Assembly: GCA_037043015.1 (NCBI GenBank)
Contig: CM073323.1
Location: forward strand, 992,001-1,056,000
DNA from: Bryum argenteum
Taxonomy: Eukaryota; Streptophyta; Bryopsida; Bryales; Bryaceae
DNA: 64,000 nucleotides
Direction: 5' to 3'
The number at the start of each line of letters is the position of its first letter. Positions within the stretch are counted from its first letter, which is position 1. Position numbers and translations under genes: made by a program. A model generated the notes under the pieces. The model saw only the letters and a program-made list of their open reading frames with translations, did not search any database and was not told where the DNA came from. Below, piece after piece: positions 34,438 to 48,572 of the stretch.

Positions 34438-34964
34438 TAATATAAGAAACGCGCGAAACGTACAACGCAGCCACAAGAAGAGAGTGCAAGCGGAGCGGTG
34501 GTGATGGTGAGATAAACACCATATCTGCAGCTAAGAACAATGCACAATAGAATGAAGAGGAAGAGCACGACATGTATGGAGAGCTAAGAGCCAATAATGA
34601 GGAAGATGTGCGAGAGAACCAAGCGGCACAACAAGAAACAAAGGCGGCGCAAGAGCAAGAGGAAAACTAGCGTAGGAGCTAGAGAAACTAGAGGCGCACA
34701 AATGAGCTCAGGTGGAAAAGTAAGAGAGAATGGGGGCCAAATCCTAGGGCCCCCCACCTCATTGGCAGCCCGGACTTTTTGGGCTACTTGCCTGTGGTTG
34801 ATCCATACTGCCCGTCCCTGACCTATCTTGTCGTGGCCTAACCAGTCCTGCCCATGCCTGTGCCAGCCTACACAGAGGTGCCCAAGTCTGCCTGTGCATT
34901 TTAATGCATGCCACTAGTATTTGTGTGTAATTTGCTTAGTTTACTTAGAGTAAATTATGTTGGA

Positions 34965-35367
34965 AATGTCAATTCCGTTAAAATGGCACTAGTCCATGTG
35001 CCATTTTAGCGGAGCTAAAGTGCCATATTGTGCAAACATGCCATTTTACAAGCATATTTTTGAACTGAAGTTCAGAAGTACTTATGCCTATAAAATGGCA
35101 TGTTTATTAATATCACACATGTACTCCACAATATCACCAAAATTTCTGTAATATCACTAAAATTTCCATAATATCACACATTTTTATGATTTTTGACCTT
35201 TGGACAGAGTAAAAGGGCAATATTTCTGAACGGCCGTTTAGAAATATTTACCTTATCATGTCAGAACTCGACAAAAACTTGACAAAAACTAGCATCATTT
35301 TTTTCATTTTAAGCACCCCAAAAAGCGACATTTTAGCGGAATAACGCCATTTTAACGGAATTGAGGT
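34965..35367. mobile_element. MITE with CAATTCCGTTAAAATGGC ends, copy 1
   Basis: A 403-bp insertion with inverted ends built on CAATTCCGTTAAAATGGC. TTGGA occurs on both sides (34960-34964, 35368-35372), whereas the undisturbed duplicate has it once (36738-36742). This gives the insertion point directly and a 5-bp (possibly 3-bp GGA) target duplication. The interior contains repeated ATATCAC words and an AACTGAAGTTCAG palindrome, shared with the relative at 49203-49455. Confidence 0.85.
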
Positions 35368-35824
35368 TTGGATTAATATAATTAACGCTTATTGCGCACC
35401 ATAACACTCTACTAAAGTTGATAATTAATGTTTGTTACAATGATTTTAAACCATTTCCCTAGTTCTATTTGTTGAAGACATGTTAGATCAATAAATGACA
35501 ATCCAAACACACTATAAGCTCTATGGTAAAATATAGGCACTTCAAGATAGATAGAAACTCCGGTCCCTTTCTAAGGGGCCGGCGTGAATGAAGTGTCCGT
35601 TCGTAATGCTAATATCCCGATGGCCACCGGACAAGGGGAAATTGGAACAATACTACTTCCCCCTCTCGAGGGTGGACACTATAACTACGCTAGTTTCTAG
35701 CCTAGTTACTAGTGCCTTGAGGATACTTGACATAGTATCCCCCCAAAGGACTTTGAGGTACCCATACAACAAGGTCCAAGGACCCCCCACAATAGTTGGG
35801 TGGACTATAGTGGTGAGCACCACG

Positions 35825-35895
35825 CCGGCATGGGGAATGGAACCCACGACCTCCTCAATGGGGGCCATGAGCCCCAACCACCAAGCCAAGGCTTG
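35825..35895 (-). other. tRNA-like promoter module of the SINE
   Basis: A-box (TGGCTTGGTGGTT) and B-box (GGGTTCCATTCC) words are spaced as in a tRNA gene. A cloverleaf is not preserved, so this is a tRNA-derived promoter and not a tRNA gene. Confidence 0.7.
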
Positions 35896-35903
35896 TGGTG
35901 CCT

Positions 35904-35962
35904 CGCTTAACTTCAGAGTTCTGATGGGATCTGGTGTAGTAGCCTTGGTATGACCGCATCAC
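35904..35962 (-). other. 5S rRNA-like head of the SINE
   Basis: Compared with the plant 5S rRNA consensus recalled from memory, this segment follows the first 57 or so nucleotides with few changes, including the GGATCCCATCAGAACTC and AAGTTAAGCG regions. It stops inside the 5S internal promoter, so it is not a functional 5S gene. Confidence 0.85.
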
Positions 35963-36116
35963 GGCACTTCAACACTATACAAGAGTACATGCAATGTACT
36001 AAAGAAGCAAAATGTGGAAATTGGGTAAATTAATGAATGCTAAATTATTGATAAATTGTTGTATTCGTACATTGATAGTGAAATTGAATCAATACAAGAA
36101 TATAAATTAACTGCTA

Positions 36117-37052
36117 AATATAAGAAACGCCTAAAACATACAACGCCGCCACAAGAAGAGATTACGAGCGGAGCGGTAGTGACGGTGAGATAAACACCAG
36201 AATGAACAACGCGCAACAAAATGAAGAGGAAGAGCACGTCACGTACTCACGTATAGAGAGCAGAGGTGAGAGCCAAAAACGAGGGAGAGGTGCGAGGGAA
36301 ATTGGCGGCACAAAGCAAGAAAATAAAGGCGGCGCAACAACAAGAGGGAAATTCGCAAAGGAGCGAGGGAAACTAGCCGCGCACAAAACAAGGAGGGAGC
36401 AAGGGAAAATGGCGGCGCACAAGACAACGAAGGAGCAAAGAGAAACTGGCGGCGCACAAGACAACGAAGGAGCAAAGAGAAACTGGCGGCGCACAAAATA
36501 GCTCAGGTGGAGAAGTGAGAGAGAATGGAGGCCAAACCCTTGGCCCCCCACCTCATTGGCACCCCAGACTTCTCGCCCTACTTTCGCGTGGTTGATCCAT
36601 ACTGCCCGTCCCTGACCTATCATGGCCGCGCCTAACTTGTTTTGGTCATGCGTGCCGGGGCCTACACAAACGTGCCCAACTGCCCATGCAGCTAGTATTT
36701 GTGTGCAATTTACTTAGTTTACTTAGAGTAAATTATGTTGGATTAATGTAATTAACGCTTATGGCGCACCATAACACTCTACTAAATTTGATAATTAATG
36801 TTCGTTACAATAATTTTTAACCATTCCCCTAGTTCTATTTGTTGAAGACATGTTAGGTCAATAAATGACAATCTAACACACTATTAGCTCTATGGTAAAA
36901 TGGAGGCACTTCAACACTTTACGAGAGTACATGCAATGTACTACAGAAGCAAAGTGTGGAAATTGGGTAAATTAATGAATGTTAAATTATCGATAAATTT
37001 TTGTATTCGTACATAGTGAAATTGAATTAATACAATAATATTTTTTAACCTC
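36117..37052 (+). repeat. Tandem segmental duplication, copy 2 (empty sites preserved)
   Basis: The uninterrupted partner of 34438-36111. It contains a run of about 37-bp tandem repeats near 36365-36500 (word GGCGGCGCACAAGACAACGA), which creates long but meaningless Gln/Glu/Arg-rich frames. Both insertion sites of copy 1 are present here without the inserts. Confidence 0.85.
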
Positions 37053-38061
37053 TTAATATAAGAACATTCTAAATATAAAAATAGTCTAAATAAAACATCC
37101 ATATATTTATACCATAACGTTCCAATATTAATAAAATATGTTCATTAATTTAAATAATATTATCATAACATATTATTTTATCAATATATTAGTGGCTTCA
37201 AGTCACATTACTAACACTAACGCATTATTTTCTAAATAGTCAAGAACAATGGGAGTCAATGTACACATTTTTATATCTAGGGAATGAAGAAATATTATTT
37301 AATTGTCAGTACTAAAGTACTAGTTCTATTTTTAAAATGTTCATATCCTTCTACCCAACAATTATGTAGTAGTATATTACATGTAGATAGTCTTGAAACA
37401 ATCTTGTGGGATAGAAGGTTCGATAGGGCTTACAAGTCCATGAGTATGTTTTGCATCATCTGCATTATGTGGTTGATAGCCTAGCTTTCTCAAGGAATGC
37501 GCAATGCGCGGTCGCTTGACGAAGCGTGGACTTGACACGACCACTAAAGGCTCTTCACATTGCCCCCTCATGGCTCCTTGTCTTCTCTTGTACTAGGGGC
37601 GTAGTCGTGCCATTCTCATCTAGCTACTTGCACAATCTTTTTGATTGGCAAGTCAACTACTAAGTTGATGTCTTCGCTATTGAAAGCCACTAATGATTTT
37701 ATCGTTGGGTATATATCATTTGATTGCAGAACCTGTGCGTTGTTACAAGCTGCCTCTTTCTTGCATTCTTCAATCAAAAAAGAGACCTCGTCAACTCTGC
37801 CCTCCATTGGGCCTTTACTATAACTACTATATTATGACAATAACATTAGAATATAAATAAATTAAATATACTATTATAGCATATTATTTAGTGAATATAT
37901 TATTGGCTATGAAACGCATACAAACACTAATACATTAATATGTGAATAGTCTTCGAGAAGTCTGTTAAAATAGAATGAGAGTCATTGTAGTCATGTTTAT
38001 ACTTCGGGTATGAACAAATATTATTATGAATTGTCAACACCCACATATTGGTTCAACTTTG

Positions 38062-39427: not shown

Positions 39428-41206
39428 TTATCGACGGCGACGTAGAGCTAATTCTGTATGCCACCTTTCGTAACACCCCTTTTTGAGACACATCCATTTG
39501 TCACCACATTTGTGACAATAAAAATGTGGCTCGCAAACTTTGCACACAACACATTGCCGTCGCATTGAAGTCCATGTTGGTGTACAAATCACCGGTCGAC
39601 GAGGTGCTTCAGGAATATCATTGGGTTGCATACTCCTCATCCTCCAATTTGCCAGAAGTGCTTCACACAAGCCTTCCTTGAATTGAAGATGTGTCATAGG
39701 TGTAACCGCCGCTCTTCCCCGGTTTACATTTGCTACACATTCCATGTAGATAATATACATGTTCACTATTGTGACATCTAGCAAAAGATAAGATATCCTA
39801 TGCCACCATTTGTGACTCCTCGATTGGCAACTATAGGAAGCTCTCAATTGATCGGCAACGTCGACACCACGCATGTGAGTGGTATACTCTAGCAAAACCG
39901 GAGATGTTTGAATAAACTCACACCGGTCCGTTGCAACGAGGAACACTTACTACTTTTTTCTCACATGGTGCTTGAATAGGAAGACTATGAGTAGAAAGTA
40001 ATAATACCGGCCGCTTGTCCTTCCACATGACACAAGAGATTGTTCGGCTTTCATGCATTCTCCACAAGGTAGTACCTTGTGGTGCATTTTTGAATGAAGC
40101 GGTATTTTTGAAAATAAGAGGTAACCCAATACGGTTTTGTCTTATGGTACCACAAGCGTACATGCCTTTTGATAATAGTGTTGTAAAAAGCCCAATGCTT
40201 GTGAAAAAATTGTCCATAGTCACGCAATGCCCTAGTCCCCATAATCCTTCCAATAATCTCAACACTACATTATGCGCTAATCTAGCGTCACCGATTAGAG
40301 GAGGAGGTTGATCGTCATTAGATAAGAGAATGGGAGGCGGAATGCCGGTTTCCTTGCCACAATATATTTCAAAATTCCAAACATACTTGGAAATTGAACA
40401 TGCGACACACCAAACCCTCAAGCCCCATTTTTGGGGCTTTTTTGGCATATATTGGCGTATAGGTGAGTACGTTCCCTTGTAACGTATCATCATCTCATCT
40501 ATAGTCAAAAACTTTCCAAGGAACCATGCCATTTTACATCTCTCTCTTATAGCATCAACCAACCACCGAGTTTGCATAATCTTATCATATCCGGAGTTCC
40601 CTCTTTGAATTCCTTGCATATGAGTAAGATGTAAACATCTTCTCAACTCTATAAATCTAGCTCTAGTTAGAATGCCAGAAATAATTGGGCATTGAAATAA
40701 TGCTTTTTGCATCCAATAAGTCCGATAATTAGGTTGCACTTTGAGCCCCATATAAATTGATAATGCCAAAAACGCTTGTAGTTCAATAACACTCAAGTTG
40801 ACCCATTTTGCACCCCCTTTTGTATTGCCATTGCCATATAGAGGTAAGTTGGCATATCGGTTTGTCTCTTCCACAATAGAGTTCATAATTTGTGAAGTCC
40901 AAAATAGAGTGAAGAGTTGCATAAAGGTCGGAAGAACTCGGTAGGTGGTAGAAGGGCCTCTTCTATTTCCCAAAAAGGGCATGGGCATAGGGTTATAAAA
41001 AATATTGGGGTTGCCCCAAGTTTCATCCCGGAATTCCCACTTTATGCCGGTTTGGTTTTGGTCTATATCCACACCATCTTCTTCACCATCACTTTCAAAA
41101 TCGGAGTCAATCAATGGAATGTTATCACCACCATCACTATCATATGTGGAATCATTACCAATGTCATTGGGACCTACTCCAAGTGCTCCCCAACCAACTG
41201 CAATAT
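39428..41206 (-). pseudogene. piggyBac-type transposase, frameshifted
   Basis: Two overlapping minus-strand frames, 41206-39918 and 39946-39428, together cover a piggyBac transposase (DDE_Tnp_1_7) of about 590 residues. The first frame has the acidic N-terminus, first catalytic Asp in FLTIDEMMIRYKG and second in CVTMDNFFTSIGLF. The second has the third Asp in MRGVDVADQL, the KWWHRISYLLLD helix and the C-terminal cysteine-rich finger (CVVCKVCEPHFYCHKCGDKW). Family members carry these in one frame, so a one- or two-base shift between 39946 and 39918 breaks the gene, although all three catalytic Asp codons survive. An acceptor (TTGCAG) at the left edge suggests an upstream exon that I cannot place. 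A partial echo of the N-terminal coding sequence (TTGAAAGTGATGGTGAA) recurs at about 41383-41399. Confidence 0.9.
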
Positions 41207-41696
41207 AGAAATACAAAAGCTAAAGCATCCAAATACAACAAGCAAATTTCATTATGCAAATGATGCAATTTATGTGAAACGTTATTTTTTCAATTGTAAA
41301 AATGTTGTGAGGGATTACTAATTTATTTATTTTTCTATTAGATTGCTTATGTAGTTTGGCACCCCAACTATGTAATTCACCATCACTTTCAAGATCTATT
41401 GTAGTTTCATAATACATAATTCTTATACAATTTTTCATGCTTATGTCATCCGTGTCTTATATAAAAGAAAATTTACATAATATTCCATAGAAATATCATA
41501 TGTATGCGAATGTTGTATGAAAAAAAATCCCATGTTTATATTTTGTGAATACAAAAGTCATATTTCAATTGAATAATTTCCTTGTAATACATCATGCGTA
41601 TACAAATGACACATGTCAAACGTCAAATGACATAAAAAATTCTCTCATAATTTTTGTATACAAATTTTAAATCATTGAGTATTTGGTAATTGATTG

Positions 41697-45115: not shown

Positions 45116-45479
45116 TTAAAATGCAAAATGAAAAACGAAGATGCTTTGGGGCATCCTTACTTCTTCAAAAGAAAAAAACTCAAAACTTTTTGATATTTTT
45201 CCTACATGTAGAAAAATACCTGCACGAAATAGAGCATAAAAATATTTTGAAAAAAAATAAATTTTTTACATCGTGAAAAATATTCAAGTCTGCTGGGCAG
45301 TAAAAAGACGCCCCACCCTAAAAATAAAAAAAAAAAAAAAAAAAAAAATTTCGAAATTTTTTCTATATGTAGAAAAATATCTGCATGGAATCGAGCATAA
45401 ATAAATTTTGAAAAAAAAAAATTTTACATCGTGAAAAAAATTCAAAGTCTGTTGGGCAGTAAAAAGACACCCCAGCCTC

Positions 45480-45510
<31 letters not shown>

Positions 45511-45650
45511 CAAAAAATTTCGAAATTTTTTCTACGTGTAGAAATATACCTGCATGAAATAGAGCATAACAAAATTTTGATTTTTTTTTTTTTTTTTTTA
45601 CATCGTGAAAAATATTCAAAGTCTGATGGGCAGTAAAAAGACGCCTCAGC

Positions 45651-45705
<55 letters not shown>

Positions 45706-46293: not shown

Positions 46294-47985
46294 GTAAAAA
46301 AAATGAATTATGCTTGACCGAATCACTTCCTAAATCAAACGAGAGGCTTGATTGTCAGGTATTTCAAGCGTTGAAGACCTTACAAATAGATTGACAACTT
46401 GTAAGTTTTTACAACAACTATCTATTTTGATTGAAAACAATGGACTCACTTAGGGACAAAATGCAGAATGAGAAAAATCTTGAAGCGGCATGGCCGAAAG
46501 AACTAGAGAAACTCCAGAGTAAATTACCCTCATTCGTCGACCTTCTAAACAAACACGAGGTCTGGGAGCTAACAGGCTTCATAGAAGCTGACAACAGACA
46601 TGCTATTAAGTAGCTCGGCTATAAAACTTCAAAGCTTTGAAGTGATGCATACTATCCACCTCTCTCTGAGCAGTTTTGTAACAAGAATTTTTAAAGCTAG
46701 TCCAAGCTTGAATGTCTTTGTGCGTGAATCATCGTCGTTTGCTTTGATGTTTAAAGCATTTTGCAATACACAAATCTGAAACAGATGCATCATTGCTAAA
46801 AGAGATTTTTGCACTGGTGAAGCCAAGCACGTTGTCGGAACACATGTTTTACATTTACCTTCCCTTATACATTTATAATTGTAATAAATGCGTATGGGTA
46901 ACTTGTGTATCCATCTACGACCTCGTACTCCTCATCGCTCTCATATGGATCTGTATCCGCCTCGCTCTCCAGCTCCTCTTTGTCTGAGATGGTGACTCAT
47001 ACCTGATCGTGAAGCTTCTAGGCCGCATGCGACTTCTCTCATTCTTTGGTCGGGAGTTTTTAGGCCACAGAACAAGTGTTCTTGGCCGGAGAGTCGGTTG
47101 GGACAAGCGCTTCTGCTTCCCTCTTCCCCTTGGCCTTGGGGGTGGCCGGATTTGAAGCCCTGCATCCGTCCTACAATATAACTTATGCAATACCCAATCA
47201 AAAAAATAGGCTCCGAGAGCTCGCTCGACATGGTCAAACGGCTATTGACTTATAGTTGAGAAAAAAGAATGAGGATGTGGCAAGGGTTGAGGTGAAAACT
47301 TAGCCACTTGGCCGCCACGTACGTGCCACGTGGGACCGATGACATGGGGGTACCTCAATGGCACGGCAGTACAGGAGCAATGGTAATTATGACTCATTTC
47401 GTATTTTATTTTCGTTTTTATTTTGTTAATCAATCAATTTGAGGCCACTGTCATTTGTGTGTTGACATCGGTCCTTCTCTTTTGCCCCTGCCCCCCTCCC
47501 CTCCTACTTGTTATTTACTTTTAACGCAGAAACTTTAGGGTTGAATTTTCTACTGGCTAGGACAAGTGCAACCAGCCCTAAAATGTGATATAGAAAGCTA
47601 GGCAAACATGAGATAGTGAAGTTTGTTATTACTTATTGCTGACGTCAACATTTGCAGACAACATTTTGTACCTACGAGCTGACCGTATATACAAAAGCGA
47701 ATGTATTCTTTACAAGCAAGGGTCTTGACTTTCAACTTCAAGCTTGTTGTATAGGGTATATGGTCAATTTTACACGCGTAGTTGCTTTAACCCATAGAAA
47801 TCTACACGTTCTTTTGACCTCCAAATTGTGTTTTTCTATCACCTTGTTTGAATTGAGGTGTGGTCAAACTTCTTAACATTTTCTTGTACTTTGAACCGTA
47901 GGATCTTGAACCTCGTTCCTATCACAATGCCCTTGTAAAATTTTAGCTCTTGGATCTATACCACCACAAGAGATTTTATAACTAT
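46294..47985. other. Intergenic, no supported gene
   Basis: Only short frames, for example 46431-46613 (+) with the start MKTMDSLRDKMQNEKN, with no family match. Nothing else stands out. Confidence 0.4.
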
Positions 47986-48252
47986 GGGAGTCATATTGAC
48001 TATGACTAAATAGCATCATATTGTTCAAAGCGATTAAGAATATATGATTAAAAATATGACAATTGATAGTAATCTTATAGCCATATTTTGACAGTTTGTA
48101 GTCACATGTCATTACAAATAGTCATAACATGTGATATGTGACAACAAACTATCATGACGTGACCAGAAAATGATTATCAATATTCATATTTTCAATAATT
48201 TACTTTAGTCGCTCAATATGACGCTATTTAGTCATAGTCAATATGACTCCCC
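47986..48252. mobile_element. Foldback MITE, 267 bp
   Basis: Left and right halves are inverted copies: both read inward GGGAGTCATATTGACTATGA continuing to CTAAATAGC(A/G)TCATATTG, then with more divergence through an AGTTTGT(A/T)GTCACA block near the centre. The transcript would form one long hairpin. Target duplication unclear. Confidence 0.85.
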
Positions 48253-48572
48253 TAATTACAAAGCCTTACATGTGTAGATAATCTTGAAACAAAGCTTGGA
48301 AATAAGGGACAATAATGCATATGAGGGTTTGCATGCAAAATACCCTACTTTACACAACCAATACACCACCTTCCTCATGTGGTGTACCCGTTCAATATAA
48401 ATGCGAACACTTTTCCATTAGTGATTGTTTCTGTAATCACCGTTTCTAATATCAAATCGTTCAAAAACAATTACTCTTATAATCAAAGAAAACGTATTGT
48501 TTTTCTGGCAGATTAAGCAATTTAAGATTTTAAACAGGTTGAGGCTCTTTGTATGATTCGTTTGTAGGAGAG
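48253..48572. other. Intergenic, no supported gene
   Basis: AT-rich spacer between two MITEs; nothing seen. Confidence 0.5.

Follow-up and report, generated by a model that had tools for sequence, protein, structure and literature searches.

A 417-bp Insert in a Duplicated Locus

The window, i.e., the whole 64,000-nucleotide stretch of Bryum argenteum DNA that was analysed, contains at positions 35546-35962 a chimeric retro-insert of 417 bp whose sense strand is the minus strand, and these coordinates were verified to the base. Its 5' end (35904-35962, minus strand) is 100% identical to nucleotides 1-59 of 5S rRNA (Rfam 5S) in sense orientation, which confirmed the start of about 59 nucleotides of 5S-like sequence proposed in a sequence-only reading of this DNA; exact 59-nucleotide matches to this head were found at 11 other loci. 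The remainder (35546-35903, minus strand) is a complete tRNA-headed SINE of 358 nucleotides with a TATC tail, 99-100% identical to full-length copies that lack the 5S head (headless copies). Within it, an A-box-like motif, TGGCTTGGTGG (35878-35888, minus strand), and a B-box-like motif, GGTTCCATTCC (35834-35844, minus strand), were recognized by eye and their positions checked, using what we take to be the consensus of each box. At the 3' end the tail reads TATCTATC (35546-35553, minus strand), while other copies have longer TATC runs. The tRNA-style boxes of the sequence-only reading are thus present as box-like motifs, but ARAGORN, run with the bacterial code, called no tRNA.

The insert is bordered by a 10-bp target-site duplication, GGCACTTCAA, read from the sequence at 35536-35545 (left copy) and 35963-35972 (right copy), both on the plus strand. 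A diverged direct duplication, whose pieces are 76-94% identical, spans positions 34439-37073; it surrounds the insert and includes, in the adjacent duplicate, the empty site with a single GGCACTTCAA at 36905-36914 (plus strand) and no insert. When the flanks of the insert were joined and compared with that duplicate, 204 of 219 aligned bases were identical, so that the boundaries first drawn from the 10-bp duplication and the empty site hold. Since the target duplication flanks the whole insert and the empty duplicate has neither part, the 5S and SINE parts arrived in one event. That a SINE had landed by chance beside an old genomic 5S fragment is hardly conceivable: nothing in the window copy speaks for it, the duplication encloses both parts, and the neighbouring empty site, with no 5S and no SINE, refutes it. 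An LTR pair around the 5S part, which had been named beforehand as evidence against a SINE, was looked for and none was seen, the repeats found being part of the locus duplication; an origin from Cassandra or another LTR element was rejected for this reason.

The Rfam 5S model matched the minus strand at 35834-35961 with 38.6 bits, vs. 109.1 bits for a full 5S copy. A full-length 5S in the window was rejected, as the model's 3' half is here aligned with what is in fact SINE sequence. The internal promoter of 5S genes comprises boxes A, IE and C, of which IE and C presumably lie 3' of nucleotide 59. Because the head stops at nucleotide 59, before the positions assumed for these two boxes, it does not hold a complete second polymerase III module, and the two modules in series of the sequence-only reading find no support.

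No second SINE or 5S match was found elsewhere in the window at an E-value of 1e-3. For a HIT protein encoded in the window, the best hit with a named organism is from Physcomitrium patens (83% over 64% of the query), which points to a moss. Other features of the window are a 432-amino acid open frame on the minus strand (39918-41216) with a DDE_Tnp_1_7 domain (E-value 1.8e-62), which we take to be piggyBac-like, an A-rich tandem array of three copies of units of about 161-174 bp (45167-45688) and an imperfect palindrome (47975-48262; 75% over 298 aligned positions).

The SINE Is Mostly Found without 5S Sequence

The genome searched comprises 258.8 Mb in 25 contigs, with 258.4 Mb contained in eleven contigs of 7.0 to 44.1 Mb each. 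A search with the insert gave 2803 candidates, of which 40 were scored; the 39 best besides the window copy match the SINE part only, with 99-100% identity, and extend at most 7 nucleotides beyond it. The 31 nucleotides at the SINE 3' end occur exactly at 635 places. As a sample, the first 60 of 100 listed places (of the 635) were taken in position order, with heads ignored. A 5S head was present in one of them (L152, the same locus as L020), and the other 59 had no 5S in 641 bases each, contrary to the expectation that most genome copies would begin with the 5S part. Sampled SINEs, either complete or 5'-truncated, start at most 5 nucleotides from a target duplication in 48 of 60 cases. The dispersed copies with target duplications and a simple-repeat tail that had been predicted were found, though for the 358-nucleotide SINE, which together with the A and B boxes recognized by eye has the features of a tRNA-derived SINE. 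The SINE of the window insert (L009) does not differ by a single letter from four headless copies (L002-L005), and that of L024 is likewise letter-identical to headless copies.

We also observed other SINE kinds (L025, L028, L029, L055, L062, L080, and L088) that have in common a core near CGAACGGACACTTTATTCACGCC but are distinguished by their bodies or by their tails (TTC, TA, TTTA, or other repeats).

5S rRNA Is Joined to SINEs in About 50 Insertions

5S 5' ends were defined as the 64 places matching nucleotides 1-30 with up to 3 mismatches, all of which were retrieved as loci; nucleotides 27-57 matched at 50 places. The 5S reference is the sequence common to many copies, six of which score 109.1 bits to the Rfam model, and not a gene from an rDNA array. 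The matches are dispersed, and no tandem 5S array was found among the 64 places, where the only doubled units lie inside single insertions (L030 and L082). In bryophytes, 5S genes are reported inside 35S repeats, according to the available text of PMC6739443, and rDNA missing from the assembly would explain the absence of an array.

A SINE follows the 5S in sense at 51 of the 64 places, corresponding to 50 insertions, as the two 5S units of L030 were counted once; the window insert is one of them. Forty-one fusions were detected by a script (fuzzy search for the SINE core within 560 nucleotides) and 10 were counted by hand (L032, L035, L069, L071, L074, L078, L084, L090, L095, and L098). An antisense SINE core was found behind the 5S at one of 64 places, and the background for the core was 9 in 2000 random draws of 530 nucleotides from the window, with 32 draws that fell on the insert scored as misses. 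A target duplication around the whole 5S and SINE unit was detected by script in 35 of 50 insertions, vs. 3, 0, and 3 in three sets of 50 controls with mismatched ends. In a 420-nucleotide search the script found none for 15 of the 50, or 13 counting L035 and L074, whose duplications lie further out than its reach. The sequence-only reading would have fallen with a tRNA-like part that starts alone and a 5S piece present only here: of the 60 SINE copies sampled, 59 do lack 5S, but 5S sequence precedes SINEs in 50 insertions.

Twelve of the 64 places have no partner behind the 5S (L011, L018, L023, L026, L068, L083, L086, L087, L089, L093, L096, and L097). Four of them, L011, L018, L023, and L026, are full-length 5S copies, 97-99% identical, at which neither a partner nor a convincing duplication was seen. 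At L034 a SINE core lies some hundreds of nucleotides behind the 5S, with the join itself out of view. Of four further 5S places not included in the 64, L077 is apparently joined to a SINE, and L073 (5S 1-58, 86%), L076, and L081 are not.

The partners vary. 5S-joined SINEs include kinds with TATC, TTC, and TA tails, serial 5S-5S-SINE joins occur at L030, L036, L078, and L082, and at L015 the 5S is followed by 666 nucleotides from the 3' end of a LINE, which terminate in poly(A); a 16-bp duplication is present there. No Pfam domain was found in the L015 fragment itself, while L169, a longer relative with 99% identity to it, contains a zf-RVT domain of LINE-type reverse transcriptases. The junctions fall at SINE nucleotides 1-5, 47, 48, 126, 155, 253-265, 273, 277, 279, 297, and 327. 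Such a range of SINE start positions, together with several SINE kinds and serial joins, indicates separate events. As expected of a template-switch chimera, the second RNA lies 5' and in sense, and one duplication surrounds the whole chimera.

The 5S/SINE joins therefore very probably result from recurrent template jumping during reverse transcription, the window insert being one such recent retrotransposition. In the proposed course of events, target-primed reverse transcription would start in the TATC tail of the SINE, and the reverse transcriptase, presumably a LINE enzyme, would copy the SINE to its 5' end or, in other joins, stop early. It would then jump onto 5S rRNA, copying from a 3' end (for the window insert, that of a 5' fragment ending near nucleotide 59) through to nucleotide 1, and the joined cDNA would be inserted between the 10-bp target duplications.

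A true 5S-headed SINE family of the SINE3 type, transposing as a unit, would also place 5S before a SINE in 50 insertions, and some loci do resemble family members: L095 has the same junction as the window copy, L009 (5S nucleotide 59 to SINE nucleotide 1), and L019 and L031 have a linker and one substitution in common. Apart from these two pairs, however, the junctions are independent and vary on both the 5S and the SINE side. No single fixed junction occurs in many copies, 5S being present in one of 60 sampled SINEs, and 5S is also found on several SINE kinds and on a LINE. The letter identity of the L009 and L024 SINEs to headless copies, and a 59-nucleotide window head that ends before the presumed IE and C boxes, also argue against such a family.

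A tree was built from 12 headed and 43 headless full-length SINEs. Of 14 headed sequences entered, two were removed because they are incomplete (L085 and L095); L066 and L084 were left out, and L152 was dropped as the L020 locus. The tree was poorly resolved, with no starred branch, and the headed copies do not clearly cluster on it: the headed/headless label changes 8 times, vs. a shuffled mean of 10.1 (58 of 500 shuffles were as low). A single change, as would result if one branch separated all headed copies from the others, occurred in 0% of 200 bootstrap trees, although one clade of headed copies was not rejected by the AU test (p 0.112) and would suit a family. Altogether we consider a SINE3-like family very unlikely, and a fixed 5S-SINE family was rejected as the main account because of the varied junctions and the letter-identical headless copies. 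The chimeric SINE of the sequence-only reading stands insofar as a chimera of 5S and a tRNA-headed SINE entered the locus as one unit; a class of SINEs whose promoter combines 5S and tRNA modules found no support. Some re-mobilisation of chimeras is possible, judging from their sequences, and L009/L095 and L019/L031 are the best hints of it.

The anatomy of the joins would be the same if the two RNAs had been ligated before reverse transcription and one chimeric RNA copied with no jump, and RNA ligation is named as an alternative for LINE-1 chimeras in the available text of PMC13174262. We compared SINE start positions in 33 headed TATC-type copies, entered by hand with L032 and L092 omitted, and in 59 headless copies. 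Of the headed copies 16 have an intact 5' end, 7 start at nucleotides 253-265 and 10 elsewhere, vs. 37, 9, and 13 of the headless ones (KS p 0.18; p 0.16 for truncated copies alone). Nucleotides 253-265 stand out as a 5' truncation hotspot with and without 5S. The 5S is thus joined to SINEs that start where headless insertions stop, as expected of interrupted cDNA, which argues against prior ligation, and the A-rich linkers described below fit tailed ends or enzyme-added letters better. Ligation before copying is therefore improbable, and we favour a jump of the reverse transcriptase between templates.

Ends of the 5S Units and A-Rich Linkers

The 51 5S units comprise 34 that are full-length or diverged full-length, 15 that end at nucleotides 54-59 and 2 that end elsewhere (64 and 78). 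Hence 15 of 17 truncated ends fall at nucleotides 54-59 (p 5e-16 under a uniform null over nucleotides 31-116), or 15 of 19 if L090 and L098 (70-74% identity), both taken as full-length, are considered truncated. L031, which has an internal repeat, was taken as full-length, and L096, which ends at nucleotide 58 and has no partner, was not counted; three ends were set by hand (L069 from 63 to 56, L079 from 67 to 59, and L091 from 68 to 56). The Rfam structure line shows nucleotides 54-57 as unpaired (columns counted by hand), and a predicted fold does so for nucleotides 54-58, a stretch that we take to be the 3' strand of loop B. The window head, ending at nucleotide 59, stops at the edge of the unpaired loop.

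Linkers between full-length 5S and the partner total 77 nucleotides in 19 joins; 59 of these are A, 10 are T and 8 are G, and C is absent. These 19 of the 34 full-length units were read by hand and found again by script, the omitted 15 being L078 and L020, with longer, A-rich linkers, and 13 with an unclear partner start. At L078 there are 14 consecutive A, of which the final one is already the first letter of the SINE. The A-rich linkers could stem either from tailed 5S RNA or from nucleotides that the enzyme added. The available text of PMC13030794 mentions oligoadenylation of plant pre-rRNA and cites a paper on the tailing of aberrant yeast 5S rRNA.

Taken together, the sharp ends at nucleotides 54-59 and the A-rich linkers suggest a discrete, partly A-tailed 5' half of 5S rRNA as a frequent template. 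We tentatively propose, as a possibility that we hold to be well short of probable, that such a half, cut within or next to loop B at nucleotides 54-59 and often A-tailed, exists in the cells of this moss and is a favoured landing template of the LINE enzyme. The genome would then bear the traces of a product of RNA processing and be supplied continually with new prototypes of 5S-headed SINEs, a part of which may have begun to transpose again. The ends and linkers amount to a testable prediction on 5S decay products.

Comparison with Known Systems

5S chimeras are already known from mammalian L1 and from animal SINE families. AmnSINE1 is a 5S-tRNA chimera, i.e., 5S joined to a tRNA-derived SINE, and the SINE3 elements were reportedly described as 5S-derived SINEs by Kapitonov and Jurka in 2003. 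SINE3 resembles the moss joins in having 5S at the 5' end and a SINE body behind, but the moss window head stops at nucleotide 59, the SINE keeps its tRNA head and there is no fixed junction. AmnSINE1 appears in a table of PMC3747384, and the SINE3 work is cited in PMC3272025. In HaSE3 of Helicoverpa armigera, 5S is again joined to a tRNA-derived SINE, and the authors propose template switching from the SINE RNA to 5S rRNA (PMC3272025, available text). HaSE3 and AmnSINE1 are, however, SINE families with a 5S-headed form, whereas the moss heads differ between copies. The accessible part of PMC5063351 also lists 5S-related SINEs for a fungus, Aspergillus fumigatus.

In mammals, the RNAs that form chimeras with LINE-1 include U6, U3, and 5S, and the 5S/L1 and U6/L1 insertions are like the moss joins in carrying the small RNA 5' of the element, in arising by one insertion, often with target duplications, and in recurrent truncation of 5S (PMC13174262, available text). 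The 27 cases of 5S/L1 given there differ in that their 5S is typically antisense and truncated at nucleotides 46 and 90, while that of the moss is in sense, as in U6/L1, full-length or ending at nucleotides 54-59, and mostly on SINEs. Cassandra LTR retrotransposons are likewise plant retroelements with 5S sequence, although theirs lies in the LTRs, as stated in the available text of PMC10886601, and the moss insert has no LTR pair. The open literature searched, a scope that leaves most subscription papers outside, named no 5S/SINE case in plants, in agreement with the sequence-only reading, which knew of no described plant SINE with a 5S-plus-tRNA arrangement.

Earlier SINEs of the 5S-plus-tRNA type were attributed to template switching, but from finished families, as far as the available text of PMC3272025 goes. 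In the present case, a single plant genome contains about 50 joins between one small RNA and SINEs, which differ in their junctions and are accompanied by target duplications and by relatives that lack the head, and this combination makes the habits of the enzyme measurable.

A preference for 5S over other small RNAs was judged from a comparison with U6, for which 8 of 25 places were examined, and from the 60 sampled SINEs. Rfam detected no other small RNA at 11 sampled SINE loci, namely 10 of the 12 that had no clean 5' boundary plus L154, with L127 and L152 left out. Among the 8 U6 places, one U6/SINE join was recognized by eye (L162, G000:C4:6798728-6799528), where a U6-like 3' part (49.6 bits to U6) is fused to a SINE whose tail reads TTTATTTA, and a possible 8-bp duplication, GTAATGTG, was noted by eye.
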